Assembly (NCBI GenBank): GCA_027081065.1
Contig: JALWLW010000082.1
Coordinates: 1-14,882 of the forward strand
Length of the DNA stretch: 14,882 nucleotides
From: Campylobacteraceae bacterium
Lineage (GTDB): Bacteria > Campylobacterota > Campylobacteria > Campylobacterales > Sulfurovaceae
Reading direction: 5' to 3'
Shown one piece after another: positions 171-13,930 of the stretch. How positions within the stretch are numbered: the stretch's first letter is position 1; each line of letters opens with the position of its first letter. The translations under genes and the position numbers were made by a program. Below the pieces are notes generated by a model. It saw only the letters and a list, made by a program, of their open reading frames with translations, ran no database searches and was not told the origin of the DNA.

Positions 171-239
171 AACATTGTAATATTTTTTAATATACGTCAT
201 AATAATTATAGAAAATAACTAATCTTAAGGAGAAAGCAC

Positions 240-647: not shown

Positions 648-675
648 TTTTAAAATTTCTTTAAGTATTAGTTAT

Positions 676-772
676 GTGGGTCGTTAGACTCACGCTACTA
701 AAAAAGCCACTTCTCTTTTAAAACTTGAAAAACAAAACTTTCAAAGCATAGACTCACAGCCATTTCGTTAGA
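676..772. repeat. Intergenic patch with paired short repeats, possible dispersed element
   Basis: This stretch between two AT-rich flanks has a clearly different composition. TAGACTCAC occurs at 685-693 and again at 749-757, and CGTTAGA occurs at 682-688 and 766-772. GTGGGTC/GACTCAC (676-682 and 687-693, one G-T pair) can form a stem with a four-base loop. The minus strand contains a 21-codon open frame (698-763). I do not call it a gene because it has no ribosome binding site. The layout resembles a small non-coding dispersed repeat, but copy number cannot be judged from one window. Confidence 0.3.
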
Positions 773-802
773 ATAACATCAAACAATAAAAATTAAAATA
801 TT

Positions 803-811
803 TGATTATAT
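803..811 (+). promoter_or_regulatory. Candidate extended -10 promoter for the asd operon
   Basis: TGATTATAT fits a TGn-TATAAT-like extended -10 about 34 bases before the asd start, in an AT-rich stretch. No distinct -35 is seen, as is usual in this group. This is inference from pattern and position only. Confidence 0.3.
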
Positions 812-844
812 CTTAATGAAATAATTTAATTAAAAAGGACAAAT

Positions 845-1879
845 GTGAAACAGTATAATGTAGCTATTGTAGGAGCAAGTGGTGCTGTTGGGGAAGAGCT
901 ATTTAGGGTTTTAGAAGAGGTTAAATTCCCTATGGCTGATTTATTACCATTGGCATCTGCTAATTCTGCTGGTAAGGTGATTGAGTGTCAAGGCGAAGAG
1001 TATCGAATTGAAGAGTTAACAGAAGAGGTATTTGTTGGACGTAATATTGATATTGCTTTCTTTTCTGCTGGTGGTAGTATTTCTGCCAAGTATGCCAAGT
1101 ATGCAGTAGAATCTGGAGCTGTGGTTATTGATAATACATCTCATTTTAGAATGATTGATAATGTACCATTGGTTGTACCAGAAGTGAACCCCGAAGATAT
1201 TGAACTTTGGGAAGAGACAGGGATTATTGCTAATCCTAACTGTTCTACTATTCAAATGGTTCAACTTCTTAAGCCTCTTCATGATTTATATGGTATTAAA
1301 AGAGTCGATGTTTCAACCTATCAAGCAGTGTCAGGTGCTGGAAAAGCTGGAATGGAAGAGTTAGTGCAACAAATGCAAGATTTTTTTGCTTTTAAACTCG
1401 ATGCAACAAAAGTAGAAGCTTTTGCACATCAAATTGCTTTGAATGTTATTCCTCATATTGATGTACCTCAAGCGAATGGATATACAAAAGAAGAGATGAA
1501 AATGGTAAATGAGACAGGAAAGATTATGCATACAGCATTTGCTGTATCAGCGACTTGTGTTCGTGTACCTGTGCTTCGTTCTCATTCTGAAGCCATTACC
1601 ATTACTTTTGAAGATGATGTGGATGTTTGCGTAGATGAAGCAAGAAAGGTATTGAGTGAATTTGAAAATGTAACGGTTATTGATGACATTGAAAATAATA
1701 AATACCCAATGCCAATGATTGCAACAGATACTGATGAGACTTATGTAGGACGAATTAGAAAAGATATTTCATCAGCAAATATTTTACATATTTGGGGTGT
1801 TGCTGACCAAGTGAGAGTAGGGGCTGCAACCAATGCAGTTAGAATTGCACAAAAATGGATAAAATTGGAGAATAGGTAA
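845..1879 (+). CDS. asd: Aspartate-semialdehyde dehydrogenase
   Basis: The enzyme reduces aspartyl-4-phosphate to aspartate semialdehyde with NADPH. It is cytoplasmic and sits at the branch point to lysine/diaminopimelate, threonine and methionine. The protein has 344 residues, normal for the family. Visible features are the N-terminal nucleotide-binding motif GASGAVG (10-16), the active-site cysteine C133 in NPNCSTIQ, the substrate-binding STYQAVSGAG (Q160), and the RVPVLRSHSEA segment with R240 and catalytic-type H248. The start is GTG at 845, preceded by AAAAGGA (833-839). No ATG nearby fits the conserved N-terminus MKQYNVAIVGASG. It is the first gene of a tight operon: the YqhA-family gene begins one base after its stop. 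Family assignment is very secure. Confidence 0.97.
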   Translation: MKQYNVAIVGASGAVGEELFRVLEEVKFPMADLLPLASANSAGKVIECQGEEYRIEELTEEVFVGRNIDIAFFSAGGSISAKYAKYAVESGAVVIDNTSHFRMIDNVPLVVPEVNPEDIELWEETGIIANPNCSTIQMVQLLKPLHDLYGIKRVDVSTYQAVSGAGKAGMEELVQQMQDFFAFKLDATKVEAFAHQIALNVIPHIDVPQANGYTKEEMKMVNETGKIMHTAFAVSATCVRVPVLRSHSEAITITFEDDVDVCVDEARKVLSEFENVTVIDDIENNKYPMPMIATDTDETYVGRIRKDISSANILHIWGVADQVRVGAATNAVRIAQKWIKLENR

Positions 1880-1880
1880 A

Positions 1881-2447
1881 ATGGCAACAGAAGAAGAGAT
1901 AAGAGCAAGAGAAGAGCATGATAGAAAAAATAGTAGTCTTATTGAGACACTGTTTGAAGGTGCTATTTGGAATAGTAGGTTTATAGTGCTTTTAGCAGTG
2001 ATATTTGGATTGTTGGGAGCAATTATTCTTTTTGTTATAGCCTCTATGGATATTTGGAATGTAGCTATGTATACTTATGATACAATTATTACTCATGCAC
2101 ATCCTGAAAAGTTTCATGAAGATATTGTTGCAGGTATTATAGGCGCTGTTGATTTGTATCTTATTGCTGTGGTTATGTTTATCTTTTCCTTTGGATTATA
2201 TGAGCTTTTTATCTCTAATATTGATCAAGCAAAAGGTATTAATGGTTCAAAACTTTTGGCAATTCATGATTTAGATCAACTTAAAGATAAAATAGCGAAA
2301 GTTATTGTTATGGTGTTAGTAGTAAACTTTTTTCAAAGAGTTTTGCATACAAACTTTAGTACTCCAATAGAGATGCTCTATTTCGCATTCTCTATTATGG
2401 TATTGGCTATTGGTTTAAGTTTTTTAAGTAAGGTAGGGAAACATTAA
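1881..2447 (+). CDS. YqhA/UPF0114-family inner-membrane protein
   Basis: This is a 188-residue integral membrane protein whose sequence matches my memory of the YqhA (UPF0114) family, a group without an established biochemical role. An N-terminal charged segment (1-30) is followed by four predicted membrane helices at about 33-55, 84-110, 138-155 and 162-183. The family-like stretches are the [20 protein letters not shown] helix, [28 protein letters not shown], and the charged [19 protein letters not shown] connection. It sits between asd and hemE: its ATG follows the asd stop by one base, and its stop overlaps the hemE start in TAATG. The three are almost certainly cotranscribed and translationally coupled. 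The neighbours do not point to a specific role; shared expression with heme and amino acid synthesis may be only organisational. Confidence 0.85.
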
Positions 2448-3493
2448 TGAGTAAAATATTTGTAGACGCATGTTTAGGAAAAGAGACACCATACACACCT
2501 GTATGGATGATGAGACAAGCAGGTCGATACTTGCCAGAGTACATGAAAGTAAGAGCAGAAGCAGGAGATTTCTTGTCTCTTTGTCATGACCCTAAAAAAG
2601 CAGCTGAAGTTACTATTCAACCATTAGATATTGTGGGTGTTGATGCTGCTATTTTATTTTCAGATATTTTGGTGATTCCTGATGAGATGGGAATGGATTT
2701 GTCTTTTGTAAAAGGTGAAGGTCCAAAGTTTTCAGATCCAATTAAAGGTCAAGAAGATTTAGACAGACTTATTGGTGGAGAAGAGGCTGCAAGTAAATTA
2801 ACTTATGTTTACGATACCATTAAACTTTTAAGAACAGAGCTTGATGAACGTGGTGACAACATTGCACTTATTGGGTTTACGGGTTCACCTTGGACTTTAG
2901 CGACTTATATGATTGAAGGACAAGGAACAAAAACTTACAACTTATGTAAAAAGATGATGTACTCAAATCCTGAACTCTTACATAATATTTTAAGAGAAGT
3001 GACAGAAGTTGTTAAGCTTTATATGGAAAAACAGATTGAAGCTGGAATTGATGTTGTACAAATTTTTGATTCGTGGGCAGCAGCGATTGAGCCAGGAGTT
3101 TATGATGAGTTCTCATGGAAATATATGGTTGAAATTTGTGATCATTTAAAAGCTAAATATCCAGAAACACCAATTATTATGTTCCCTAAAGGGGTATCTG
3201 CTTTTATTGAACGTGGTTTAGTATATGGTAACTTTGATGTATTTGGTGTTGATTGGGGAACACCAATGGCAATGGCAAAAGAGAAACTAGGAGACAAATA
3301 TGTACTTCAAGGAAATATGGAACCATGTAGACTTTATTCAAAAGAAGCAACGACTGAGTGTGTTGAGTCTATTGCTAAGACGATGAAAGAGGGAAGACAT
3401 ATCTTTAATTTAGGACATGGAATTCTTCCTGATGTTCCTGTTGAAAATGCAATCCACTTTGTATCTGAGTGTAAAAGAGCATCAAAGCGTTAA
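2447..3493 (+). CDS. hemE: Uroporphyrinogen III decarboxylase
   Basis: HemE removes the four acetate carboxyls of uroporphyrinogen III to make coproporphyrinogen III in cytoplasmic heme synthesis, without a cofactor. The protein has 348 residues, the usual length. Conserved landmarks are [15 protein letters not shown] with R23 and R27 (substrate carboxylate binding), [12 protein letters not shown] with D73 (the key aspartate contacting pyrrole nitrogens), [16 protein letters not shown] with Y154, FDSWAA with S209, QGNMEP, and [14 protein letters not shown] with H324. All expected active-site residues are present. The start overlaps the preceding stop (TAATG), with AAGGTAGGG about eight bases upstream as ribosome binding site. 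It is the last gene of the asd operon, and a hairpin terminator begins immediately after its stop. Confidence 0.98.
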
Positions 3494-3526
3494 AAGATCA
3501 TAGGCTTTTTGCCTATGATTTTATTT
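3494..3526. terminator. Bidirectional rho-independent terminator
   Basis: A perfect nine-base stem, ATCATAGGC (3497-3505) with GCCTATGAT (3511-3519), closes on a five-base loop. It is followed by TTTTATTT on the plus strand and by a short T run on the minus strand. It starts one base after the hemE stop and touches the stop of the convergent LysM gene, so it probably ends both transcripts. Confidence 0.85.
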
Positions 3527-4453
3527 GGGAACATAAACCTTTTGTCCAATGCGTAAGGGAGTATTTTTATTTTTAATATTGTAGTTTGCAGCTACAATCT
3601 TATCTATCTTTGTTGTCGTTCCATAAAACTTTTTTGAGATATAAGCTAAATTATACCCTTTTTTTACAGTAATGTATCTTCGTCTTTTATTTTTTGGTAA
3701 ATAAGGAATTATGACTTTTTGCCCAACTTTTAGCCTTGTTTTATGACTTTTTATACTTTTATTGGCACGTATAATTCTTTTAAACTCCATAGGATTACCA
3801 TAAAACTTTTCAGAAAGTAAAGCAAGTGTATCACCTTTTTTTACAATGGCTATTCTTGGTTTTTTTCTTATGGTTTTAGCTTTTGGAGATACTTTTTTTA
3901 CTTTCTTTTTAATAGTTTTTGTAACAATTTTTTCTTCTTTTAATAAGGGAGGAGTGCTTTTGATTTCAGTAATGGTTTGAATAACGCTCTTTTTTTGAAT
4001 TTTTGGTTTAATGATTTTTGGTTCAAGTTTAGCAACATGCTCCAGTGCTAACTCTTCTGTGTAACGTACAACTTTTGTAATCTCTTCTTTTACCGAGACA
4101 ATAGGAATTTGAGGTTTCTTTATAACTTCTTTAGGTTTTGTTATGACCTCTTTTCCTACGGGTTGTTCTTTTGGAGTTTTTGCTATTGTCTCTTTTTTGA
4201 TAGTTGGTTTACTTTGATTATTGTCGGTAAGTAGCGTTACAGGTACGGTAGAAGTATTAGATGGTTGAAGTGACTTAAATCCTATGTACCCAAGAATGCT
4301 AACAGTAATTAAACCTATTGTTGTAAATAAGAATCCTTTAGATCGTTTACGCTCCTCTTCACTCTCTTCTAAAAAATGTTCTTCAAAGTCAAAATTAAAA
4401 CTCTCTTCTACTTCCTCTTCATCTGGACCTTTAAGTGGTTTTACTATTTCCAT
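3521..4453 (-). CDS. Membrane-anchored protein with two LysM domains
   Basis: With the start chosen here the protein has 310 residues. Residues 1-40 are strongly acidic and probably cytoplasmic. Residues 41-59 (GFLFTTIGLITVSILGYIGF) form one transmembrane helix, 60-200 are a Pro/Lys/Thr/Glu-rich linker, and 203-250 and 260-309 are two LysM modules (VKKGDTLALLSEKFYGN...GQKVIIP and VKKGYNLAYISKKFYGT...GQKVYVP). The layout suggests a type II anchor reaching through the periplasm to bind peptidoglycan. No enzyme domain is seen. The frame stays open to 4522, but a TGTTATAAT promoter lies inside that extension, so an mRNA starting from it would lack the upstream ATG. The ATG at 4453 precedes MEIVKPLKG, with a weak AAGAAG before it. 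A micro-ORF with a better ribosome site overlaps this start. It faces hemE tail to tail and is divergent from mutY. Confidence 0.8.
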   Translation of the reverse strand: MEIVKPLKGPDEEEVEESFNFDFEEHFLEESEEERKRSKGFLFTTIGLITVSILGYIGFKSLQPSNTSTVPVTLLTDNNQSKPTIKKETIAKTPKEQPVGKEVITKPKEVIKKPQIPIVSVKEEITKVVRYTEELALEHVAKLEPKIIKPKIQKKSVIQTITEIKSTPPLLKEEKIVTKTIKKKVKKVSPKAKTIRKKPRIAIVKKGDTLALLSEKFYGNPMEFKRIIRANKSIKSHKTRLKVGQKVIIPYLPKNKRRRYITVKKGYNLAYISKKFYGTTTKIDKIVAANYNIKNKNTPLRIGQKVYVPK

Positions 4454-4476
4454 GAAAACTTCTTTATTTTTAACAT
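4444..4476 (-). other. Possible 10-codon leader ORF overlapping the LysM gene start
   Basis: ATG at 4476 opens a ten-residue frame (MLKIKKFSWK) ending in TAG at 4444-4446, ten bases past the first base of the LysM gene's ATG and in another frame. It has the best ribosome binding site of the region: AGAGGA at 4482-4487, five bases upstream. It might feed ribosomes to the weakly preceded LysM start by coupling. Equally, the match could be accidental. Confidence 0.3.
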
Positions 4477-4502
4477 TGTATTCCTCTTTTAACCTTTTGT
4501 GA

Positions 4503-4511
4503 ATTATAACA
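4503..4511 (-). promoter_or_regulatory. Extended -10 promoter for the LysM gene
   Basis: Read on the minus strand this is TGTTATAAT, a perfect TGn-TATAAT extended -10. Transcription would begin near 4496, leaving a leader of about 43 bases before the ATG at 4453. It lies inside the longer open frame and is a main reason for preferring the shorter protein. Confidence 0.6.
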
Positions 4512-4568
4512 ATATAATACATTTTAATAGATTAACTTTAAAAGGCTAATTGAAAAATATGATAACTT

Positions 4569-4577
4569 TGATACAAT
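4569..4577 (+). promoter_or_regulatory. Extended -10 promoter immediately upstream of mutY
   Basis: TGATACAAT fits the extended -10 pattern. Its last base is only five bases before the mutY ATG (4583), so transcription would be expected to start at or next to the start codon. No Shine-Dalgarno sequence precedes the ATG. A leaderless mutY mRNA is the simplest reading, unless the real promoter lies further upstream. Confidence 0.45.
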
Positions 4578-4582
4578 GTTAA

Positions 4583-5551
4583 ATGCAAAATCATCTCTAC
4601 TCTCCTATTCATAAAAATATTTTAACTTGGTATCAAGCACATGGGCGTGTTACTTTACCGTGGAGAAATACACAGAGTGCTTATGAAATTTATCTTTCAG
4701 AAATCATGTTACAACAGACGCAAGTTAAAACTGTCTTGGAACGTTTTTATTTTCAATTTTTAGAAAAGTTTCCTACTTTAAGTGATGTGGCTCAGAGTCC
4801 GGTTGATGATGTTTTAAAGGCTTGGGAAGGTTTGGGCTATTATACCCGTGCTAGAAATTTACACAAAACAGCTGTTGAAACAAAAGGTATTTTACCTAAT
4901 AATGCAGAGGCACTAGAGAAGCTTCCAGGTATAGGAAAGTCCACGGCTCATGCTGTAGCTTGTTTTGCTTTTAATGAGCCTTTACCAATACTTGATGCGA
5001 ATGTAAAACGTATTTTGTATCGTTTTTTTGCTGTAATATCTTGTAGTGATAAAAAGTTATGGGAGTTAGCTTATAGGCTTTATGATAAAGAGAATGCCTA
5101 TATCTATAATCAAACAATGATGGACATTGGTTCAGCTATTTGTACACACAAAAATCCATCTTGTCACCTTTGCCCATTTGAGTCACAATGTAAAGGAAAA
5201 GAAAATCCACTTCTGTATCCTAAGAAAAAAAAGAAAAAAAAGAAACCTATTAGACAACGTACTTTAGTGATTTATCATAACAATGATGCTTATGCACTAA
5301 GTCAAAACTATGAGCGTTTACTTTCTGGTTTATGGGGATTTAAACAAGAAGAAAATTTTGCATTAAAGCCACAGATGAGTCTTTTGGGTAAAATTAAACA
5401 GCACTATACACACTTTACTTTAGACGCCTCTGTTGTATTGGTAGAAAATAAAGAGCAAGAAAAGTATTTTACGATGAATGAAATTGACCGTTTAGCTTTA
5501 AGTGGGGCAGATAGAAAGGCATTGGCACTATTGTCTGATTTTATAAAATAA
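4583..5551 (+). CDS. mutY: Adenine DNA glycosylase MutY
   Basis: MutY excises adenine mispaired with 8-oxoguanine, preventing G:C to T:A changes. The protein has 322 residues. The catalytic core shows the helix LSEIMLQQTQV with E40, the helix-hairpin-helix LEKLPGIGKSTA (111-122), and ILDANVKR with catalytic D138. The iron-sulfur ligands C187, C194, C197 and C203 have the exact C-x6-C-x2-C-x5-C spacing. Residues from about 225 onward form the C-terminal NUDIX-like domain that reads 8-oxoG (YTHFTLD near 275). A run of eight lysines (214-221) links the halves and is encoded by a repeated A AAA AAG sequence. No Shine-Dalgarno precedes the ATG, and a stop codon directly abuts it upstream in frame. 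A membrane protein gene follows 15 bases downstream, probably in the same transcript. Confidence 0.96.
   Translation: MQNHLYSPIHKNILTWYQAHGRVTLPWRNTQSAYEIYLSEIMLQQTQVKTVLERFYFQFLEKFPTLSDVAQSPVDDVLKAWEGLGYYTRARNLHKTAVETKGILPNNAEALEKLPGIGKSTAHAVACFAFNEPLPILDANVKRILYRFFAVISCSDKKLWELAYRLYDKENAYIYNQTMMDIGSAICTHKNPSCHLCPFESQCKGKENPLLYPKKKKKKKKPIRQRTLVIYHNNDAYALSQNYERLLSGLWGFKQEENFALKPQMSLLGKIKQHYTHFTLDASVVLVENKEQEKYFTMNEIDRLALSGADRKALALLSDFIK
5225..5242 (+). other. Tandem A AAA AAG slippery sequence inside mutY
   Basis: Two A8 runs, each followed by G, place the heptamer A AAA AAG in the zero frame twice, at 5227-5233 and 5236-5242. This is the heptamer used for -1 frameshifting in E. coli dnaX. 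After a -1 shift at the second site, reading gives Glu-Thr-Tyr and then TAG at 5251-5253. A +1 shift meets TAG at 5265-5267. Either event gives a MutY of about 225-230 residues without its C-terminal domain. I saw no convincing upstream stimulator or downstream hairpin. Confidence 0.45.
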
Positions 5552-5566
5552 CACAAAGGATAGATT

Positions 5567-6091
5567 ATGCAAGTTTTAAAATTTTTACTAGGTATTATTT
5601 TAGTTCAATTTATAACAGCTGTACTTATATATATATCACCTATAGAGTTAGATAATACAACAGGATTGTTACGTTTGATTTTACCTCTTTTTTTTATGGC
5701 ACTGTTAGTCGCTTTTTGGTTCTCTTCTCTCTCTAGTTCTTTGCGTAAAGATTCTGAATATAAAATGAGTAATAAGTTCGCAAAAGAGAGAGAAGCTTTT
5801 AAAGTAAAAGCTGAAAAAGCAAAAATAGAAGTTGTTAAAGAGGCCCAAAAGGAGATTACACGTGAAGCTAAAGTGACTCATGCTAAAGCAAACTTTAAAG
5901 TAGGTGCTGCTTTTGCAGGTGCTTTAGGTGTTGGTGCATTATTTATTTTTGCTCAACTTATTACAGTAGGACTTTTGACAATGACAGCTGCAGGTGGAGT
6001 TATTGGTGGATACTATTGGCGTGGGAAACGAATAGAGAACTCTAAAATCAAAGAGTTAGAGATTATTGATACAAAAGTAATTGCTCATTAA
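5567..6091 (+). CDS. Membrane protein with central helical region, unknown function
   Basis: I do not recognise this 174-residue protein. Two membrane helices (about 3-23 and 34-54) are followed by a highly charged, Lys/Glu/Ala-rich segment (62-110) with coiled-coil character. Next comes a glycine/alanine-rich hydrophobic pair (about 112-150: VGAAFAGALGVGALF... and TMTAAGGVIGGYYW), where the GxxxG-like spacing suits helix packing. A short charged tail ends the protein. AAAGGA (5555-5560) lies six bases before the ATG, so the start is firm. It follows mutY by 15 bases and is closed by a strong hairpin, which suggests cotranscription with mutY, although nothing in the protein points to DNA repair. 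The charged middle segment probably faces the cytoplasm if the helices form two hairpins. Confidence 0.8.
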   Translation: MQVLKFLLGIILVQFITAVLIYISPIELDNTTGLLRLILPLFFMALLVAFWFSSLSSSLRKDSEYKMSNKFAKEREAFKVKAEKAKIEVVKEAQKEITREAKVTHAKANFKVGAAFAGALGVGALFIFAQLITVGLLTMTAAGGVIGGYYWRGKRIENSKIKELEIIDTKVIAH

Positions 6092-6106
6092 TAAAACTTA
6101 AGTAAG

Positions 6107-6148
6107 AACTTCGTCATAAGTTACATACTTTATGAACGAAGTTTTATT
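6107..6148 (+). terminator. Rho-independent terminator after the mutY operon
   Basis: AACTTCGT (6107-6114) pairs with ACGAAGTT (6136-6143). The stem continues through CATAA/TTATG with one bulged A, around an eight-to-ten-base loop, and TTTTATT follows. It lies 15 bases after the stop at 6091. The opposite strand lacks a good T run, so it probably acts on plus-strand transcription only. Confidence 0.75.
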
Positions 6149-6192
6149 ATAAGAGATTAAGCTCAATTTTGAAGAGCTAAAATAGTTTAGTA

Positions 6193-7887
6193 TTAGTATG
6201 CCTCTTTTATGGGATCTTTTGGAAAAAGTTCTACTTCTATAGGGAACTCTTTAACGGTAGCAACACCTTCAGCTACAATTCTAAGTTGAAAGTTAACTAT
6301 TCTTACTTCAGTATCCGAAGTATATATTCCACGAGTAAATACAACATTAAAACAAACTTCATCACCTGCATTAACATTATCTATAGAATCCCCTGCAACT
6401 GCTCCTTCTATATTAGGAGTAATACTTTCGACAACGCTACCATCATCACCGATAGCTTCTAATATTACTGAAATGTCTGTACTTGTTCCTGCAATTGCTG
6501 ACTCAATAGCTGCTACAATCTCAGAACTATCAGCAGATAAATTGAAAACACTTCCATCGGTCAAGTCTGCAATTTCGATAACATCAGCGATACTTCCTCC
6601 AGATTGAAGTCCGAAAACTTTAATACCTTTACTTACTAAACTATCAACTGTTTCTGTTAACCCATGTCCAGGATAATCTGGTTCATCATCTGAATTATGA
6701 AAACCAGCATCTGTAGCTAAAAAGATAATTGGTAAAGCACCCTCTCTCCAACCTGTAGCAGCTTCTCCTCCCTGAAAAAGTGCTTCTAATTGGCTTTCAG
6801 GACCATCACGACCATATAAAAGATCTAAATTGTTAATTGCAGTTGTTACCAAGGAAAAATCATCAGTAAGAGGTTGATCTAATCTGAATGCATAATCTAC
6901 TGCTCCACCATATGGAGATATAGGGAAGTCACTAAAACTTGCTACAGAAATTTGTACATCTTGACCTGCCTCTTCAAATGCCGATATAATTTCATTGGCT
7001 CTTGCTCTAAATACAGCTAAATCATCTCCATAACTACCTGAAACATCAATTAAAAACATAATATCTACTTTCTGAAAAACTTCAGTACTATCAGGGATAG
7101 TTGCACATATAACTTTACTAATACTCTCTTTATCAAAAGGTATTGTAACTTTTATTAAATCAGGAGATATTGGATCACAAGGCATTTCAAAAGTAGTATG
7201 AATATTAAAGTCTCGTGCATCACTCATTGCAGAGTTACCAACAGTATTAAAGGCTAAAGCTTTAATAACATATGTTCTATCACATGTTAGACCCGTTAAT
7301 GTTACGTAAGTGTCACTTGGAGCTGTAGCATTATTCTCAGGAATCGTTACATTAATATCTCCACTTTCATCAAATAGTAAAAATCCATCTTCATTATCAG
7401 CATTGTCTAAGAAGTTTATTCGTACTGAAGTTTTATCAATGGGGGTTACACCTATATATGGCCCAGGAGCAGCTGGTATATCCATAGCTGGTTCATCAGA
7501 ACATGGTGTTGAAAATGTACTATGAATATTAAAGTGTTGTGTATCACTAGTTGACGAATTCCCATCAGCATTAAAAGCAAGAACCTTAGCTGAATAGAGT
7601 TTATCACATACTAAACCAGTAATATCGGCATAAACAGTATCAGTATTAGAGGCAGGAATTAGTTTATTTTTAACTAACTCTGATGTTGCATAGTCATATA
7701 TGGAAGCATAAAAACCATCTTCATTATTTGAGTTGTCTTGGGTTGAAACACGAACGGAAGTACTTGATAACTTACTAACACCAACATAGCTCCCTGGAGC
7801 ATTTGGCACAGCAGCTTCTGCGAAAGAGCTAAGAAGTGTTAACCCTGTTAATAGACTTATAAAAAGTCCCTTTCTATACTTAAACAT
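6193..7887 (-). CDS. Secreted protein with two FN3-like repeats and an integrin-beta-like VWA domain
   Basis: The protein has 564 residues. Residues 1-26 form a Sec signal peptide (cut near AEA-AVP). Residues 27-129 and 137-237 are two related FN3-like repeats, each with a cysteine pair (C94/C129 and C202/C237). Residues 274 to about 468 form a von Willebrand A domain with DVSGSYGDD: MIDAS D281, S283, S285, and the adjacent D288, D289 that match the integrin ADMIDAS. SFSDFPISPY (D320), GRDGPES (D361, P363, E364) and ATDAGFH (D393) align by eye with integrin beta betaI motifs. Flanking segments 244-273 and 471-553 (VNAGDEVCFNV) resemble the two halves of the integrin hybrid domain, with C261 and C512 available to pair. 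The start has AAGGA (7896-7900). It appears monocistronic. An adhesive, metal-dependent binding role is inferred; the ligand is unknown. Confidence 0.85.
   Translation of the reverse strand: MFKYRKGLFISLLTGLTLLSSFAEAAVPNAPGSYVGVSKLSSTSVRVSTQDNSNNEDGFYASIYDYATSELVKNKLIPASNTDTVYADITGLVCDKLYSAKVLAFNADGNSSTSDTQHFNIHSTFSTPCSDEPAMDIPAAPGPYIGVTPIDKTSVRINFLDNADNEDGFLLFDESGDINVTIPENNATAPSDTYVTLTGLTCDRTYVIKALAFNTVGNSAMSDARDFNIHTTFEMPCDPISPDLIKVTIPFDKESISKVICATIPDSTEVFQKVDIMFLIDVSGSYGDDLAVFRARANEIISAFEEAGQDVQISVASFSDFPISPYGGAVDYAFRLDQPLTDDFSLVTTAINNLDLLYGRDGPESQLEALFQGGEAATGWREGALPIIFLATDAGFHNSDDEPDYPGHGLTETVDSLVSKGIKVFGLQSGGSIADVIEIADLTDGSVFNLSADSSEIVAAIESAIAGTSTDISVILEAIGDDGSVVESITPNIEGAVAGDSIDNVNAGDEVCFNVVFTRGIYTSDTEVRIVNFQLRIVAEGVATVKEFPIEVELFPKDPIKEAY
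7177..7809 (-). repeat. Tandem FN3-like repeat-coding units
   Basis: Two units of about 100 codons (7501-7809 and 7177-7479) encode matching segments: APGxYxGV near the start, D-N-x-NEDGF, a T-G-L-x-C-D core, KxLAFNxxGNS, and a closing FNIHxTFxxPC. The shared wording, down to similar bases around the FNIH codons, indicates an internal duplication within the gene. Confidence 0.7.
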
Positions 7888-7940
7888 AATAATTTCCTTT
7901 TTTTATGTTAGTTTCAAATTAAATAGTTGTTAGGCAACTA

Positions 7941-7971
7941 AAAAAGCTTATTCAAGTAACTTTACTTGAAT
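7941..7971 (-). terminator. Terminator-like hairpin upstream of the FN3/VWA gene
   Basis: ATTCAAGTAA (7950-7959) and TTACTTGAAT (7962-7971) are perfect complements. On the minus strand the stem is followed by AAGCTTTTTTAG. A second, shorter stem, TAGTTG/CAACTA (7924-7940), follows it. It could end transcription from the RlpA operon 200 bases upstream, or sit in the leader of the FN3/VWA gene as an attenuator. Confidence 0.5.
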
Positions 7972-8000
7972 AGGGGCATATTAACATAAAGTATATAATA

Positions 8001-8047
8001 TAATTATAAAAAAATATATTTTATTTATATATATTTTTTTATAATTA
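8001..8047. repeat. Perfect 19-base inverted repeat made only of A and T
   Basis: The arms at 8001-8019 and 8029-8047 are exact reverse complements around a nine-base spacer, and every base is A or T. Each arm has a run of seven A (8008-8014) or T (8034-8040). It lies in the 290-base spacer between the FN3/VWA gene and the RlpA pair. Apart from this repeat and the hairpin nearer the FN3/VWA gene, 7888-8179 holds no gene that I can see. Several TATAAT-like strings in and around it could include the FN3/VWA promoter. Confidence 0.6.
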
Positions 8048-8179
8048 ATATTATTATCTATTTAAAAAAATTAAGTATTTGGACAGTAAAGTTATTTAAA
8101 AGATTAGTTTTGGGGTGAAATTTTTAATAAACAGGATGATATTATCTTTATTGTCAAATTTATGATTTTTCTTTATGGA

Positions 8180-8551
8180 CTACTTCTTAATTACTTTAAC
8201 TTTTAATTTTACCACCCCTTTATTGACATAGCCTAGTTTTTTGGCTGCTATGTAAGATAGGTCGATAATGCGTCCTTTTGCATAAGGCCCTCGGTCATTA
8301 ATACGAACAATTACTTTACGGTTATTTGTAAGGTTGGTTACCTCTACCATAGTATTAAATGGCAAGGTTTTATGGGCAGCTGTGTAAGCATACATATTGT
8401 ATCTTTCGCCACTAGCTGTTTTTTGTCCTTGAAACTTTTTACCATACCAACTCCCTTTACCTATTTGTGCGTTATTTACTTTAGCACAAGCAAGGGTTGA
8501 GAGTGATATAAGCAATGAGAGTACCAGTTTTATAATTAAAATGTTTTTCAT
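8180..8551 (-). CDS. RlpA-like double-psi beta-barrel protein, short paralogue
   Basis: This 123-residue protein has a signal peptide (about 1-23) followed by a single RlpA-type double-psi beta-barrel: GSWYGKKFQGQKTASGERYNMY, TAAHKTLPFNT, VRINDRGPY, RIIDLSYIAAKKLG. RlpA proteins act on peptidoglycan at the septum, and some are lytic transglycosylases that cleave strands lacking stem peptides. Glu49 and His60 match two residues reported as essential in Pseudomonas RlpA; the third, an Asp, is Asn52 here. There is no SPOR domain. The ATG at 8551 lies one base after the stop of the upstream paralogue, with AAGG six bases before it. A GTG at 8569 would also be in frame but would overlap that gene, so I prefer the ATG. 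STLAC near the cleavage site is not a good lipobox. Confidence 0.88.
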   Translation of the reverse strand: MKNILIIKLVLSLLISLSTLACAKVNNAQIGKGSWYGKKFQGQKTASGERYNMYAYTAAHKTLPFNTMVEVTNLTNNRKVIVRINDRGPYAKGRIIDLSYIAAKKLGYVNKGVVKLKVKVIKK

Positions 8552-8552
8552 C

Positions 8553-9227
8553 TTATACCTTATATGCACCTAAAAATTTTTTTGATTTTAAAAGTTGATT
8601 GGCTTCCCATGGTGTACATTTTAAAATTATTTTATAGGCTGTCTTTTTTTTATGCTTAATATATTGTTTAACAATAGTAGCATTTTTTAATTTGTGTTTT
8701 TCTTTAAATAGTTTGGCATTCTTTTTATTAAAGAAAGAGGCAATTTGAATTTTTTGATTTCTAATAATTTTTCTTTTTTTAGAGCTTTTTGTAGATTTTG
8801 AAGACAAAACTTCAATTTTAATTCTCTCAACCCCTTTTTTAACAAAGCCTAGTTTTTTTGCTGCAGCGTAAGAGAGGTCAATGTTTCGTGAAGAGTAAAA
8901 TGGTCCTCTGTCATTAACTCTAACAATAACAGAACGCCAATTTTTTAAACTGGTTACCTTTAAGACTGTTCCTAATGCATAAGTACGGTGAGCAGCTGTC
9001 ATGCTATACATGTTATAGCGTTCTCCATTGGCTGTTAATCGACCATGAAAAGGTTTTCCATACCATGAGGCTTTACCATACTTAATTGTTCCTCGTTTAA
9101 CATAGTGAGGATAGTATTTGATACCTCTGTCTTTGTAGGGGCGAATGTTGTTGTCTTTGGCTAAAGAAGTTGAGCTAAGTGTGAGTAAGGCAAAGAGTAA
9201 TATTATGCCATAGTTGATAATGTTCAT
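8553..9227 (-). CDS. rlpA: RlpA-like septal peptidoglycan protein with SPOR domain
   Basis: The protein has 224 residues. A signal peptide covers about 1-23, and a double-psi beta-barrel covers about 49-140 (KASWYGKPFHGRLTANGERYNMY, TAAHRTYALGT, VRVNDRGPF, RNIDLSYAAAKKLG). A Lys/Ser-rich linker is followed by a C-terminal SPOR-like segment, 158-224 (QKIQIASFFNKKNAKLF...AYKIILKC...GAYKV). SPOR domains bind denuded glycan strands at division sites, so a septal periplasmic role is expected. Glu69 and His80 are conserved, while the usual Asp is Asn72. No lipobox is evident, unlike enterobacterial RlpA. AAAAGGA lies about nine bases before the ATG. It forms a two-gene operon with the shorter paralogue (one-base gap), and its promoter region is shared divergently with htpG. 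The gene symbol rests on domain order. Confidence 0.88.
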   Translation of the reverse strand: MNIINYGIILLFALLTLSSTSLAKDNNIRPYKDRGIKYYPHYVKRGTIKYGKASWYGKPFHGRLTANGERYNMYSMTAAHRTYALGTVLKVTSLKNWRSVIVRVNDRGPFYSSRNIDLSYAAAKKLGFVKKGVERIKIEVLSSKSTKSSKKRKIIRNQKIQIASFFNKKNAKLFKEKHKLKNATIVKQYIKHKKKTAYKIILKCTPWEANQLLKSKKFLGAYKV

Positions 9228-9260
9228 TTAAGTATGTCCTTTTTTAACAATGAAGTTAAA

Positions 9261-9266
9261 ATTATA
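9261..9266 (-). promoter_or_regulatory. Candidate -10 for the RlpA operon
   Basis: Read on the minus strand this is a perfect TATAAT, 34 bases before the ATG at 9227, giving a short leader that still contains the AAAAGGA ribosome site. There is no TGn extension and no clear -35, so it rests on the hexamer and its position. Confidence 0.45.
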
Positions 9267-9358
9267 GTTTAATATAATTAAAGTAAACTATTAAGTAAAG
9301 AGACTCAACTTTATTGTTTAAATCAACTAAAACTATTGAAAATTTACAAAAAATATAT

Positions 9359-9364
9359 TATAAT
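9359..9364 (+). promoter_or_regulatory. Candidate -10 for htpG
   Basis: A perfect TATAAT about 50 bases upstream of the htpG ATG, so transcription would start near 9371. This places any upstream in-frame start, such as TTG at 9336, outside the message. No CIRCE-type (TTAGCACTC/GAGTGCTAA) or other heat-shock operator is visible in 9228-9413. Confidence 0.45.
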
Positions 9365-9413
9365 TCCAAAAATATTTACTAAAATAAATTTCACTAATAA
9401 AAGGAACAAAAAG

Positions 9414-11276
9414 ATGGCAAAACATCAGTTTCAAACAGAGATAGGGCAACTCTTAAAATTAATGACCCATTCACTCTACTCAAACAAAGAGATATTTATT
9501 AGAGAACTTGTATCTAACTCATCAGATGCAATAGATAAATTTAATCATATGCAATTAACTGATGATAAGTTCAAAGATGAAAATTGGGCTGGTCAAATTA
9601 ATATTAATTTAGATGAAGATGATAACTCTTTAACCATTGCCGATAACGGTATTGGTATGAATGAAGAAGACCTCATGAATAACCTTGGAACAATTGCTAA
9701 GTCTGGAACGAAGGCATTTGTTGAAAGTTTAACGGGAGATGCTAAGAAAGACTCTAACCTTATTGGTCAATTTGGGGTTGGTTTTTATTCTGTGTTTATG
9801 GTTTCTGATAATGTAGAAGTAATTACCAAAAAAGCTGGTGAAGACCAAGCTTATAAGTTTGCAACCGATGGAACAGGTGAATTTGAGATTACTCCTGTAA
9901 CCAAAGAGTCTCATGGTACAGTCATTTACATTAAGCTTAAAGAGGATGAAAAAGAGTTTTTACAAAAGCATCGAGTAGAATCAGTAGTTAAAAAATACTC
10001 TAATCATATTGCTTATCCAATTATGATGCACTTTAAAGAGGATGAAACAACAGGTGAGGGTGATGATGCTGTTACTAAAAAAGTAAGAAAATCAGAACAA
10101 GTAAATGCTGCAACTGCATTGTGGGCTATACCAAAATCTGAACTTAAAAAAGAGGACTATTTAGAGTTTTACAAAGGGCTTTCACACTCTGATGATGAGC
10201 CTTTAAAGTATTTGCATAACAAAGTAGAGGGAGCTCAGGAGTTTACAACACTTTTTTACATTCCCAAAATAGCTCCAATGGACATGAACCGAGCTGACTA
10301 TTCAAGTCATATTAAACTTTATGTTAAGCGTGTATTTATTACTGATGATGACAAAGAACTTTTACCAACATACTTACGTTTTGTACATGGTATTATTGAC
10401 TCAGAAGATTTACCACTTAATGTAAGCCGTGAAATTCTTCAAGACAATAGAATTTTAGCAAACATTAAACAAAGTTCAACAAAGAAGATTTTACAAGCGA
10501 TTAAAAAGCTAAAAGGTGAAGAAGCTGATATTTTTACAGCTCAATATAATAACCTTATTAAAGAGGGAATTTACACCGATTATATTAACAAAGACTTGTT
10601 ACTTGATATTGTTAAGTATAAGTCGTCAACACAAGAGGGCATGGTTACCTTTGCTGATTATATTTCACGTGCTGATTCTGAGAAAAAAGAGATTTACTAT
10701 ATTGTTGGTGAGAGTGAACAAGTACTTAGAAACTCTCCACTTCTTGAAGCTTATAACAAAGCAAATATTGAAGTTCTTCTAATGGACAATAAAAATGAAG
10801 ATACCATTGTAACTCCAATGATTGGAGAGTACAAAGAGTGGGAACTTAAAGATATTACAGCCATTGATGCACCTGATTCTAAAACTGAAGAAGAGAAAGA
10901 AGAAATTTCTAAAGAGTTTAAAGGATTAACCGAAAAGATTAAAGAAGTTCTTGGTGAAACAGTAAAAGATGTAAGAATTTCAAGTCGATTAACAAGCAGT
11001 CCTTCATGTGTGGTAAAAGACAACTCTAGCCCATTAGCAGGAATGGAAGAGATGTTTGCACAAATGGGTAAAACCATGCCAGAGACACCACTGTACTTAG
11101 AGTTAAACCCTGATCATGATATGATTAAAAAATTAGATAAGCTTGAAAAAGATGATATCTTTGCTGACATGGCGTGGATTTTATTTGATTCGGCTAAGTT
11201 GTCTGAAGGGTTAGAGCCTAAAGATAAGGCAGCATTTTCAGCTAGAGTAGCAAGAGTGGCAACTGAAGCGCTCTAA
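9414..11276 (+). CDS. htpG: Chaperone HtpG (bacterial Hsp90)
   Basis: HtpG is a cytoplasmic ATP-dependent dimeric chaperone. With ATG at 9414 it has 620 residues, close to E. coli HtpG. The N-terminal GHKL ATPase shows FIRELVSNSSDAIDKF (E31 general base, N35 for Mg/ATP, D38), IADNGIGM (D77-M82), GTIAKSGTKAF and the lid GQFGVGFYSVFMV. The middle domain contains LYVKRVFITDD and LPLNVSREILQ, and the C-terminal dimerisation domain holds the MEEMFAQMG region. The frame is open upstream to 9336, but that TTG lacks a ribosome site, lies before the probable transcription start and would add 26 lysine-rich residues. AAGGAA at 9401-9406 sets the start at MAKHQFQTEIGQLL. It appears monocistronic. No classic heat-shock operator is seen. 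Confidence 0.97.
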   Translation: MAKHQFQTEIGQLLKLMTHSLYSNKEIFIRELVSNSSDAIDKFNHMQLTDDKFKDENWAGQININLDEDDNSLTIADNGIGMNEEDLMNNLGTIAKSGTKAFVESLTGDAKKDSNLIGQFGVGFYSVFMVSDNVEVITKKAGEDQAYKFATDGTGEFEITPVTKESHGTVIYIKLKEDEKEFLQKHRVESVVKKYSNHIAYPIMMHFKEDETTGEGDDAVTKKVRKSEQVNAATALWAIPKSELKKEDYLEFYKGLSHSDDEPLKYLHNKVEGAQEFTTLFYIPKIAPMDMNRADYSSHIKLYVKRVFITDDDKELLPTYLRFVHGIIDSEDLPLNVSREILQDNRILANIKQSSTKKILQAIKKLKGEEADIFTAQYNNLIKEGIYTDYINKDLLLDIVKYKSSTQEGMVTFADYISRADSEKKEIYYIVGESEQVLRNSPLLEAYNKANIEVLLMDNKNEDTIVTPMIGEYKEWELKDITAIDAPDSKTEEEKEEISKEFKGLTEKIKEVLGETVKDVRISSRLTSSPSCVVKDNSSPLAGMEEMFAQMGKTMPETPLYLELNPDHDMIKKLDKLEKDDIFADMAWILFDSAKLSEGLEPKDKAAFSARVARVATEAL

Positions 11277-11326
11277 TAGTAAAAAACACAAAATATTTTT
11301 TAAAGTTATAAATTAAGCAATATATA

Positions 11327-11364
11327 AGTTTTGTTCACACTGTGAATAAAGTGTGAACAAAATT
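11327..11364. promoter_or_regulatory. Strong inverted repeat containing a TTCACA-N-TGTGAA palindrome
   Basis: TTTTGTTCACAC (11329-11340) and GTGTGAACAAAA (11351-11362) form a perfect 12-base stem with a ten-base loop. An alternative, tighter palindrome, TTCACA-C-TGTGAA, occupies 11334-11346. It lies 50 bases after the htpG stop and about 86 bases before the UPF0323 lipoprotein gene. It could end the htpG transcript, although its T tail is poor, or it could be the upstream half of a two-site operator. Confidence 0.5.
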
Positions 11365-11394
11365 ATAGTAAATTTAAATAATTTTACTAAAAAA

Positions 11395-11400
11395 TATATT
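11395..11400 (+). promoter_or_regulatory. Candidate -10 for the lipoprotein/ATP-grasp operon
   Basis: TATATT lies two bases before the second TTCACA-N-TGTGAA palindrome and about 50 bases before the lipoprotein ATG. If it is used, transcription would begin inside or next to that palindrome. The surrounding DNA is rich in similar A/T strings, so the choice is weak. Confidence 0.3.
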
Positions 11401-11402
11401 TT

Positions 11403-11417
11403 ATTCACAATGTGAAT
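11403..11417. promoter_or_regulatory. Candidate operator ATTCACA-A-TGTGAAT
   Basis: A perfect 7+1+7 palindrome sharing the TTCACA-N-TGTGAA core with the one at 11334-11346, their centres being 70 bases apart. A further half-site, TTTCACA, lies at about 11425-11431. Two equal palindromes before one start codon suggest a dimeric repressor or activator. The factor is not identifiable. The core has the opposite half-site order to a CRP site (TGTGA-N6-TCACA). Confidence 0.5.
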
Positions 11418-11449
11418 GAAAATATTTCACAAACATCAAGGAGATAAAG

Positions 11450-12073
11450 ATGAATAGACATATTAATAAAGTTTCAGACTATGCAATGGTAGGTGGACTT
11501 TCTGTTGTAGCACTGCTTGGTGTTCAAGGTTGTGGTGATGCTGGTGGAGATATGAACTCTCCAGAGCAACAAGAACAGAGCATTGAGAAAAAAGGTGCTT
11601 CAGTTACCATTGAAAAACAAGCTGATGGCTCTTACAAGATTATTGATGAATTTCCAAGTGCCACAACACGTGTTATTTTAAAAGAAGATGGTGTTGAACG
11701 TATTCTTACTCAAGAAGAGATTGATAAGTTGGTTAAAGAAGAGGAGGCTAGAGTTGAAGCTGGAACGTCAAAATTGACTCAAAACCCTGATGAGGTAAGA
11801 GAGTCTGGTGGGATGGGACTAGCTGGAACACTCATGGCATCAATGGCTGCTGGTATGGTTGGAGCAATGCTTATGAACAAGCTTATGAACAACCAAAATT
11901 ATCAACAAAATAGAAGAACTTCTTATAAGTCTCCAAGCACTTACTCTAGGTCTCAAAACTCATTTAAAAAGAATGCAGCAGCATCTAAGTCAAGAGCATC
12001 TTCTTCTAAAAAATCTGGTTTCTTTAGTAACAATAAAAAAGCATCTTCTCGTTCTTCAAGTTTTGGTGGTTAA
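11450..12073 (+). CDS. UPF0323-family lipoprotein
   Basis: This 207-residue protein resembles the UPF0323 lipoproteins that I recall from Campylobacter and Helicobacter. The N-terminus has a hydrophobic segment ending VQGC, with C28 as the likely lipidated cysteine. Residues 50-105 form a charged soluble part. Residues 119-147 are Gly/Met/Ala-rich and hydrophobic (GGMGLAGTLMASMAAGMVGAMLMNKL). Residues 148-207 are low complexity, rich in Ser, Lys, Asn and Arg, ending SSSFGG. A lipid anchor plus a helix would return the basic tail to the cytoplasm if the protein stays in the inner membrane. AAGGAG (11438-11443) fixes the start. It precedes the ATP-grasp gene by three bases, an arrangement like the unrelated-looking E. 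coli ygiB/ygiC pair. Its biochemical role is unknown to me. Confidence 0.85.
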   Translation: MNRHINKVSDYAMVGGLSVVALLGVQGCGDAGGDMNSPEQQEQSIEKKGASVTIEKQADGSYKIIDEFPSATTRVILKEDGVERILTQEEIDKLVKEEEARVEAGTSKLTQNPDEVRESGGMGLAGTLMASMAAGMVGAMLMNKLMNNQNYQQNRRTSYKSPSTYSRSQNSFKKNAAASKSRASSSKKSGFFSNNKKASSRSSSFGG

Positions 12074-12076
12074 GTC

Positions 12077-13264
12077 ATGAACCTTAGATCTATTAAAGTT
12101 CCTGATGACAAGTACTTAGAAAGCATTGGTTTCATTTGGCATACCGATGATGACTCAACCCCTTACATTGCCAATGAAATTGTAGAGGTCGATTCTGAAG
12201 AGGCAGATGCTTACTACGAAGCTGCCAATGAGCTTTACGATATGTTTGTAGAGGCTGGTGAATATGTGATTGAAAATGAACTTTTTCACGAATTAGGCAT
12301 TCCTTTTAATTTGATTGATGCTGTAAAGATGTCATGGGACAATGATGTTCATTGGCACTTGTACGGTCGTTTTGATTTTGCAGGTGGGCTAGATGGTAAA
12401 CCCATAAAACTCATTGAATTTAACGCCGACACACCAACAGCACTTTTTGAAACATCAATCGTTCAATGGGCAACGCTTAAGCTTAATGGTATGGAAGAGT
12501 CTCATCAGTTCAATAATTTACATGAAGCCTTAGTTGATAATTTTAAACGGCTGATTACCATGGAAGAGGATGTATCTTCATTTGAGGAGCGTTATGAGGG
12601 CTGGAAAATTCTCTTCTCTTCTGTAAAAGGTAACATCGAAGAAGAGAACACCGTAAAACTTTTGCAAAGCATTGCCAATGAAGCTGGATACGTGACAGAG
12701 TTTGCCTATGCCGATGAAGTTGAGTTTGACGGTGAAGAGGGTGTTTTCTACAAAGAAGAGAACTATGAGTATTGGTTTAAACTCTTGCCATGGGAAGATA
12801 TTGCCATTGAAGAGGCTGACTTAGCCATGTTGATGACACAGATTATGGAAAATCAAAAAGCAATTTTCTTGAATCCTGCATATACATTAATGTTCCAGTC
12901 AAAAGCATTCATGGCGATTTTATGGGAACTCTACCCAAATCATCCCTTACTGCTTGAAACTTCATTTGAGCCACTAGAAGGTGTGCCACAAGTCGAAAAA
13001 AGAATCTTTGGACGTGAAGGTGCAAACACAACCATTGTAAACGAAGATGAAGAGATAATCGCTCAAACAGATGGCGAGTATGGTGAGTTCGCTTCTATTT
13101 TCCAAGAGTATGTAGAGCTTCCAACTAACGATAAGGGCGAAAGCTACCAAGCTGGTGTATTTTATGCATATGAAGGATGTGGTTTAGGCTTTAGAAAAGG
13201 TGGTCTTATTTTAGATAATGCTTCTAAGTTTGTTGGGCATGTTGTTACAGTTGAGCAGGTGTAA
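12077..13264 (+). CDS. Glutathionylspermidine-synthase-like ATP-grasp ligase
   Basis: This 395-residue protein matches the synthetase half of glutathionylspermidine synthases and the YgiC/YjfC group. Family landmarks are the N-terminal WHTDDDSTPY, HLYGRFDFAG (R98, D100), LIEFNADTPTALFE (E114, N116, expected Mg/ATP ligands), YEGWKILFSSVKGNIEE, FKLLPWE, NPAYTLMFQSKAFMAILWELYPNHPLLLETSFEP, and KRIFGREGANT (K309, R313). The N-terminal CHAP amidase of bifunctional GspSA is absent. GspS joins the glycine carboxylate of glutathione to spermidine using ATP, but many homologues lack proven glutathione activity, so the substrate here is open. Only a weak GGTGG precedes the ATG, three bases after the lipoprotein stop, which suggests translational coupling. 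An in-frame metallopeptidase frame continues directly after its TAA. Confidence 0.9.
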   Translation: MNLRSIKVPDDKYLESIGFIWHTDDDSTPYIANEIVEVDSEEADAYYEAANELYDMFVEAGEYVIENELFHELGIPFNLIDAVKMSWDNDVHWHLYGRFDFAGGLDGKPIKLIEFNADTPTALFETSIVQWATLKLNGMEESHQFNNLHEALVDNFKRLITMEEDVSSFEERYEGWKILFSSVKGNIEEENTVKLLQSIANEAGYVTEFAYADEVEFDGEEGVFYKEENYEYWFKLLPWEDIAIEEADLAMLMTQIMENQKAIFLNPAYTLMFQSKAFMAILWELYPNHPLLLETSFEPLEGVPQVEKRIFGREGANTTIVNEDEEIIAQTDGEYGEFASIFQEYVELPTNDKGESYQAGVFYAYEGCGLGFRKGGLILDNASKFVGHVVTVEQV

Positions 13265-13267
13265 AAT

Positions 13268-13765
13268 CTGACCTTAAAATACCTAAATAATTATCCCAAA
13301 AACTTACAAGAGCAAATAAGAGAGCTTATTAAAAAAGATAAGCTCTCAAACTACATTTTAAACAAATACCCCAACAGACACGCGTACCAAAATGACAAAG
13401 CACTCTATGAATATATCAATGAATTTAAAAATATCTATTTAAAAAAGTTTACGCTCTCTAAAGTTGTTTATGATGGAAAAATAAATGTTATTAACAATGC
13501 GTTAGGAACACACACTTTTGTCTCACGTGTACAGGGTGGAAAATTGAAGGCTAAAAATGAAATACGCATAGGAACAATTTTTAAAAATATGCCTGAAGAA
13601 TTCTTACGTATGATAGTGGTGCATGAGTTGGCTCATTTTAAAGAGAAGGAACACAACAAGGCTTTTTATAAGTTTTGTACCTATATAGAACCTTCTTACC
13701 ATCAGTTTGAATTTGATTTGAGGGTTTACTTAACTCATGTAGACTTATTAGGAAAACTTTATTAG
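13268..13765 (+). CDS. YgjP-like zinc metallopeptidase with non-canonical or lost start
   Basis: From 13268 the frame is open for 165 codons and reads LTLKYLNNYPKNLQEQIRE... through VVHELAHFKEKEHNKAFYKF (H119, E120, H123, H129), then a Tyr/Phe-rich C-terminus. HExxH plus a histidine six residues later is the metal motif of YgjP-like (DUF45) proteins. The first ATG/GTG/TTG in frame is TTG at 13544, which would remove 92 residues of plausible N-terminal domain and leave a 73-residue protein. CTG at 13268 has AGGTG (13257-13261) six bases upstream and would give (M)TLKYL. The previous gene's TAA (13262-13264) is in the same frame, two codons before. Options are CTG initiation, readthrough, start at TTG, or a recently disabled gene. 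Enzyme family is likely; start is unsettled. Confidence 0.7.
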   Translation: MTLKYLNNYPKNLQEQIRELIKKDKLSNYILNKYPNRHAYQNDKALYEYINEFKNIYLKKFTLSKVVYDGKINVINNALGTHTFVSRVQGGKLKAKNEIRIGTIFKNMPEEFLRMIVVHELAHFKEKEHNKAFYKFCTYIEPSYHQFEFDLRVYLTHVDLLGKLY

Positions 13766-13863
13766 ATTCCTAGAGTAAAAGAGATAAATGAACCAAATAA
13801 AACTCTATAAGTGATGTTGAGAGCTAAAATTGAAATAAGGGTTAGGGTTATTTGAAGTCTCAT
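13762..13863 (-). CDS. 33-residue hydrophobic small membrane protein
   Basis: ATG at 13863 opens MRLQITLTLI SILALNITYR VLFGSFISFT LGI, ending at TAA (13762-13764). AAAGGA lies about six bases before the ATG, and a TATAAT about 31 bases upstream gives it a promoter of its own. Nearly the whole peptide is hydrophobic, with two arginines, enough for one membrane span. Its stop overlaps the metallopeptidase stop tail to tail. Function is unknown. A small membrane-complex subunit or a toxin-like peptide are both possible, and the name should stay hypothetical. Confidence 0.6.
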   Translation of the reverse strand: MRLQITLTLISILALNITYRVLFGSFISFTLGI

Positions 13864-13893
13864 GATATTTCCTTTATGGTTGTTGTTAAAAGG

Positions 13894-13899: not shown

Positions 13900-13930
13900 G
13901 GTAAGTTGTGTTTGTTGAGTGTTTGATATA

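Follow-up and report, generated by a model that had tools for sequence, protein, structure and literature searches.

An integrin-beta-type betaI/hybrid headpiece in a bacterial protein with fibronectin type III repeats

How much of an integrin beta chain is found in a protein of a Campylobacteraceae bacterium, and what could it do there? The question is raised by a stretch of DNA of 14,882 nucleotides (the window; contig JALWLW010000082.1, assembly GCA_027081065.1, positions 1 to 14,882), in which an earlier note had claimed a secreted protein with an integrin-beta-like betaI domain set in a hybrid domain. The existence of bacterial relatives of integrin beta is already known, since such sequences are mentioned in passages of a published paper (PMC3192720) and both Pfam and the source name of one homologue (P0092, "Integrin beta chain VWA domain") already label them in this way. 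An integrin-beta-like protein of Trichodesmium likewise appears in passages already in print. Among the titles and abstract starts of the papers listed by searches of the open-access PMC literature, we found no betaI-in-hybrid module on bacterial S8 proteases or on FN3 or PKD stalks.

Layout of the protein and relationship to integrin beta

The module lies in an open reading frame on the reverse strand, of which it forms approximately the C-terminal 320 residues; window positions 6220-7160 (-) correspond to residues 243-556. When the DNA was inspected, an AAAGGA-like stretch was seen just upstream of the ATG. The protein is laid out as follows:

6193..7887, minus strand: ORF of 564 amino acids with signal peptide, two FN3 repeats, hybrid N-terminal half, betaI and hybrid C-terminal half (ORF list, Pfam, DNA)
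7813..7887, minus strand: probable Sec signal peptide, residues 1-25 (sequence by eye; hydropathy peaking in windows that begin at residues 7-10)
7219..7806, minus strand: two fibronectin type III (FN3) repeats, about residues 28-223, the best at 146-223 and the limits of the first approximate (PF00041, E 2.9e-8, two stretches)
7078..7161, minus strand: N-terminal half of the hybrid domain, residues 243-270, with strands 245-249 and 255-263 (model strands, superposition, hhalign from column 4)
7105..7107, minus strand: C261 in the hybrid N-half, possibly in a disulfide with C512
6481..7071, minus strand: integrin-beta-type betaI (VWA) domain, residues 273-469 (PF00362, PDB matches, model)
6220..6480, minus strand: C-terminal half of the hybrid domain, residues 470-556, with six strands (model strands; profile matches to integrin beta-1 and beta-6; hhalign to column 306)
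6352..6354, minus strand: C512 in the hybrid C-half, possibly in a disulfide with C261

The FN3 repeats that had been claimed for the same protein are thus present, two in number. Hydropathy peaks fall in two places only: the signal peptide and residue 457, which belongs to the last betaI helix of the structural model. No lipobox was detected in the 564-residue protein by pattern search, nor does it contain RGD, KGD or LDV motifs. A C261-C512 disulfide in the hybrid domain is possible; among the 51 homologue rows used for conservation counts (53 homologues minus two near-duplicates), the two cysteines occur together in 6, C512 alone in 1 and neither in 44. Promoter and terminator scans were uninformative, as the observed counts were no higher than expected (13 promoter-like sites versus 16.7, and 1 terminator-like site versus 1.4).

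In the Pfam scan, Integrin_beta (PF00362) was the top family for the window's protein with 41.3 bits (E 1.9e-10, cut-off 24.8), ahead of generic VWA (PF00092), which at 29.5 bits (E 1.1e-6) also exceeded its cut-off; the expected ranking of the two was therefore confirmed. PF24909 (vWA_SIBA-E, cut-off 27) scored 25.8 bits with the whole protein and 27.5 with the module alone. All the motifs on which the original claim had been built (DVSGSYGDD, SFSDFPISPY, GRDGPE, GWR and ATDAGFH) were found in the protein, GWR at residues 379-381. A phmmer search of the PDB with the single sequence gave integrin beta as the first 48 of the best 60 of 69 matches (best E 6.6e-5). With a 13-module profile (the window's module plus 12 picked by hand from other homologues), integrin beta made up 59 of the best 60 of 64 matches, including beta-6 at E 1e-15, and the one remaining row was collagen VI (E 4.8e-8). 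In several beta-1 chains, one profile stretch ran to chain residue 432-459, from betaI into the hybrid C-half, which scores weakly by itself (beta-6, i-Evalue about 0.7). All 13 modules match PF00362, and also VWA, VWA_2, VWA_4 and PF24909 (E up to 1). Finally, hhalign against 13 animal-type integrin beta chains, nine of which carry an animal's name, gave 99.8% and E 1.2e-27 over module columns 4-306, reaching both hybrid halves. The similarity to integrin beta is far beyond chance, and the window's module is genuinely related to the ligand-binding head of integrin beta and belongs to the PF00362 domain family.

The AlphaFold2 model of the module (pLDDT 93.2, pTM 0.89) gives the same picture. 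Model residues 7-321 superpose on residues 85-433 of beta3 (300 residues, 3.3 A) with both flanks included, as had been anticipated of integrin headpieces, and integrin beta accounted for 50/50 Foldseek and 50/50 VIA rows among the matches listed. The flanks of betaI supply the strands of another domain, which matches the hybrid domain of integrins in the superposition; strand pairing was read solely from the secondary structure and the ranges superposed. The claimed insertion of betaI between two hybrid halves thus holds in the model strands, in the superposition and in the hhalign match, and the predicted architecture is that of the integrin beta headpiece, in which the sequences on either side of betaI together make up the hybrid domain that holds it.

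Metal-site residues and differences from known systems

Asp158 and Asn215 of integrin beta are SyMBS ligands, and the SyMBS set used for the comparison consists of Asp, Asn, Asp and Glu. The corresponding residues of the window's protein, with their conservation in the 51 homologue rows, are:

7033..7047, minus strand: MIDAS motif D281-V-S283-G-S285 (50/51, 45/51 plus 6 with Thr, and 50/51)
7021..7026, minus strand: ADMIDAS D288 and D289, at +7 and +8 from D281 (39/51 and 40/51)
6928..6930, minus strand: SyMBS Asp D320, in SFSDFPISPY (51/51)
6796..6813, minus strand: G359-R-D361-G-P363-E364, equivalent to integrin NRDAPE (SyMBS plus MIDAS Glu) with Asn replaced by Gly (G359 and E364 51/51; D361 48/51; P363 45/51)
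6709..6711, minus strand: D393 of ATDA, equivalent to Asp251 of beta3 (51/51)

Passages of the integrin literature place the metal sites at the DxSxS motif, Asp126/Asp127, Asp251, Met335 and Glu220 (PMC3792891) and at Asp217 for the LIMBS/SyMBS site (PMC9856412). With Thr allowed for Ser, the MIDAS positions (D281, S283, S285, E364 and D393) are complete in 50/51 rows, the exception being P0034, which differs at two. By our criteria all three sites are kept in 39/51 rows. The ADMIDAS acids are missing in 11/51, including P0053, which fails the SyMBS criterion too, so the three-site arrangement is not universal among the homologues. Nor is the Asp-Asp pair strict in the animal-type rows: in a hand-picked comparison of 57 rows (38 bacterial, 15 animal-type, of which 8 have an animal's name, and 4 from gnats), Asp stands at the D288 position in just 7 and at the D289 position in 8 of the 15 animal-type rows, making it a loose feature. 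In the SyMBS, three of the four side-chain positions are kept in the window's protein (D320, D361 and E364). The fourth, Asn in 14/15 animal-type rows, is Gly in 38/38 bacterial ones, so the replacement pointed out at G359 runs through all the bacterial rows compared. The three-metal site that had been proposed therefore stands for MIDAS and ADMIDAS, whose residues are complete in the window, while the SyMBS is without its Asn; judged from the alignment, the bacterial head has a near-complete three-metal residue set.

The segment corresponding to the specificity-determining loop separates the two sides as well. It is 10 residues long and without Cys in the window's protein and 8-12 residues without Cys in 38/38 bacterial rows, versus 19-35 residues in the animal-type rows, 14/15 of which have two Cys. 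Neither the loop nor the SyMBS Asn difference of bacterial heads was found described in the open-access PMC literature. PSI, EGF and beta-tail domains, a transmembrane helix and a cytoplasmic tail are all lacking in the window's protein, as seen by Pfam and from the end of the ORF after the hybrid domain at residue 564. Lacking these parts and the specificity-determining loop, the protein is a betaI/hybrid headpiece and not an integrin subunit. Going by integrin structures, the loop and the SyMBS Asn may go with alpha pairing. However, four fungus gnat proteins (Bradysia and Pseudolycoriella; P0124, P0135-P0137) run counter to so neat a story: these chitin-binding proteins, named "integrin beta" and grouping with animal integrins, carry, in 4/4 cases, the bacterial-type Gly in place of the SyMBS Asn and a short segment that lacks the specificity loop. 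They are perhaps alpha-free derivatives, to judge from these residues.

What is shared with the animal headpiece comprises the fold, the betaI-in-hybrid order, MIDAS, ADMIDAS, the SyMBS Asp and Glu, GWR and ATDA. The Ala after D393 is as in beta1/beta3 (PMC3792891). The FH..YP loop differs, with 33-42 residues in animal integrin beta versus 10 in the window's protein. Cyanobacterial integrin-beta-like proteins (Nostoc P0086 and Gloeotrichia P0111) share the betaI metal residues, the Gly for Asn and the lack of a specificity loop, but their FH..YP loop is longer and closer to that of animals, and PF00362 scores them much higher (118.6 and 97.3 bits); some proteins of this kind have RTX repeats or PEP-CTERM tails. 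In P0086, P0092, P0093 and P0111, all of cyanobacterial type, the long FH..YP loop comes with a FAVT-like segment, much as in animal integrin beta, and among bacterial proteins these may stand closest to integrins. SIB-type proteins (PF24909), of Dictyostelium origin, also have an integrin-beta-like VWA domain; their model scores the window's protein lower than PF00362 does.

Relatives, partner domains and spread

Searches with the window's module gave 53 homologues and those with the profile 91, from candidate lists bounded by word sharing and length. Precomputed Pfam domains list PF00362 in 44 of the 53 and an S8 peptidase domain (PF00082) in 34. By simple patterns, these 34 S8 proteins have a GTSxxxP-type serine motif in 30 cases and an HG[TS]x[VI] histidine motif in 23, and a loose lipobox pattern occurs within the first 45 residues in 23. 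Two of them, from Vibrio crassostreae (P0020) and Desulfosarcina cetonica (P0022), have the same C-terminal betaI/hybrid module at 43 and 46% identity; they differ from the window's protein in having the protease in front and no FN3 listed. Another three S8-fused relatives (P0031, P0037 and P0039) carry a DxDGDG-like insert between the LEALYQ helix and GWR, which is not in the window's protein and possibly binds calcium. The nearest relatives of the window's protein have N-terminal FN3 (P0003), PKD (P0002, locus L001) or HYDIN/ASPM Ig-like (P0004-P0008) repeats.

Both homologue sets together comprise 134 proteins, one of them from an insect. Both hybrid halves are covered in 64, the C-half only in 28, the N-half only in 14 and neither in 28; many distant relatives are thus betaI domains without a recognisable complete hybrid. 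With 9/53 homologues lacking PF00362 and 42/134 proteins not reaching the hybrid C-half, the family grades into other VWA proteins. The module ends within 25 residues of the C-terminus in 58/64 proteins with both halves and in 33/34 S8 proteins.

In a tree of the 57 rows, whose root is not known, a branch with 100/100 support parts the animal-type and gnat rows from the bacterial ones. The FN3/PKD/Ig rows form one clade (100/99) within a branch with P0009, P0010 and P0012 (98/95), among the protease rows; the group labels are ours, and the "s8" group includes P0009 and P0059, which have no S8 domain. Since FN3, PKD, HYDIN/ASPM Ig-like or S8 peptidase domains precede the same module and the clade is nested among protease rows, the window's lineage most likely derives, as far as the sequences indicate, from a protease fusion whose N-terminal partner was exchanged.

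The module is rare and patchy in the phylum of G001, a relative with a 78% match. Only 6/397 genomes match at E <= 1e-6, among which G001 alone covers the whole module (3e-136), the others being partial at 2e-19 or weaker, and the PF00362 search found 2/298 genomes. In another genome of this phylum (L005 1-3438, minus strand), a distant partial VWA match lies inside an ORF of >1100 amino acids.

No conserved operon or partner gene was seen when the neighbours in the window were compared with those at L001, which are different genes. Those in the window include LysM, RlpA-like and other genes (Pfam) as well as asd, hemE, mutY and htpG (named by eye). Upstream of the module gene and on the same strand, two RlpA-like (DPBB_1) ORFs overlap by 17 bases (8180-9227, minus strand). 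At 11450-13264 (plus strand), a small serine-rich lipoprotein-like ORF, assigned by eye and with no Pfam match, is followed by a glutathionylspermidine-synthase-like gene (PF03738, 7.4e-125). Spread on mobile elements was considered and rejected: no phage record matches the module, and plasmid records match twice by protein and never by DNA. On Vibrio gigantis plasmid p1 (L010, positions 1076-2017), the module (45% identity) lies near the record start, where PLSDB lists no gene; a possible reason is that the gene extends across that start.

Possible function and alternative explanations

We consider it reasonably probable that the window's protein is a Sec-exported single chain in which an FN3 stalk carries an alpha-free, cation-dependent integrin-beta-like binding head, with an adhesin-like or matrix-binding role. 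The signal peptide would direct export to the periplasm or outside. The head would then hold Mg2+ at the MIDAS, Ca2+ at the ADMIDAS and, more weakly, a cation at the SyMBS, with a protein ligand supplying the acidic side chain that completes the MIDAS coordination, as in integrins. It would bind in a cation-dependent way with no alpha subunit, the FN3 stalk or the protease being the function that it delivers; in the protease-fused relatives, the same head may place the subtilisin on a substrate or anchor. According to PMC3792891, an acidic residue of integrin ligands binds the MIDAS Mg2+ with support from the SyMBS Ca2+, and the ADMIDAS is linked with helix alpha7 of betaI and with the swing of the hybrid domain. 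Cation-dependent ligand binding seems the likeliest job of the bacterial module, with better than even chances, because it keeps most of the parts needed, including an L-S-x-D-S-S turn ahead of the last betaI helix (L450 and S454, each in 46/51 rows). A conformational switch is possible, and the open-like pose of the head in the model is only a hint of one. The adhesin role is put forward as a suggestion, since the same module sits in most homologues (34/53) on a secreted protease, not on a stalk, and FN3 repeats are found on secreted enzymes too, so that they do not force this name on the protein.

The module might instead be a C-terminal accessory domain of secreted subtilases, kept after loss of the protease and having a structural role or no metal-dependent ligand; its tasks would have been substrate capture, control of activity or assistance in folding. 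The S8 domain in 34/53 homologues, the nesting of the window's group among protease rows and the C-terminal position of the module all speak for this reading. However, the MIDAS residues are intact in 6/6 FN3/PKD/Ig rows examined, which argues against decay, and three stalk types in the window's group carry the same head. We regard the accessory-domain reading as rather unlikely. Pairing with a separate alpha-like beta-propeller protein into a bacterial heterodimer, as in integrins, draws on the presence of integrin-type beta-propellers in bacteria (passages of PMC3192720), but the specificity-determining loop is absent, no FG-GAP family was found among the ten window proteins scanned with Pfam, and the FG-GAP propeller (PF01839, PF13517) was not found in G001, the one related genome searched, although these propeller searches are weak evidence; such pairing is very unlikely.

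Two further readings concern the origin of the resemblance. A generic VWA domain that had gained its integrin-like motifs convergently and was flanked by ordinary linkers would fit the above-cut-off score of PF00092 and the VWA, VWA_2 and VWA_4 matches of all 13 modules. Against it, Integrin_beta scores higher in the window's protein and also in P0004, P0010 and P0022, and hhalign and the model take in both hybrid halves; largely refuted by Pfam, the PDB profile search, hhalign and the model, convergence is highly improbable. Integrins are otherwise known chiefly in animals and the unicellular organisms related to them, and it also had to be weighed whether the gene was recently transferred from an animal or is contaminating animal DNA. 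The neighbouring genes look bacterial (by eye and by Pfam), the 100/100 branch splits bacterial from animal-type rows, neither the animal loop nor the Asn occurs in the bacterial rows, and source names of relatives include Vibrio, Desulfosarcina, Burkholderiales, Thiotrichaceae, Nostoc and Myxococcota. An animal source is thus largely refuted, and its probability is practically negligible.

Beyond the preferred reading of an alpha-free binding head, we advance a bolder one, which we think unlikely as a whole: the integrin beta headpiece may predate integrins in bacteria as a stand-alone, alpha-free ligand switch, carried on proteases and stalks and open-like at rest, in which betaI binding would be coupled to the hybrid swing. 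If so, ligand binding could steer or gate proteolysis in the protease fusions, and animals would have added the specificity loop and the SyMBS Asn later, on pairing of the beta chain with a propeller.

One part of a major adhesion receptor of animals exists in bacteria by itself, apparently without a partner chain. The comparison separates what is shared, a three-site betaI in a hybrid domain, from what seems specific to integrins, namely, the specificity loop, the SyMBS Asn and the PSI/EGF legs. Being soluble and made of one chain, the bacterial relative would allow work on how metals are coordinated and how betaI and hybrid are coupled when no alpha chain is present, and the protease fusions suggest a concrete, testable use of such a head in bacteria.
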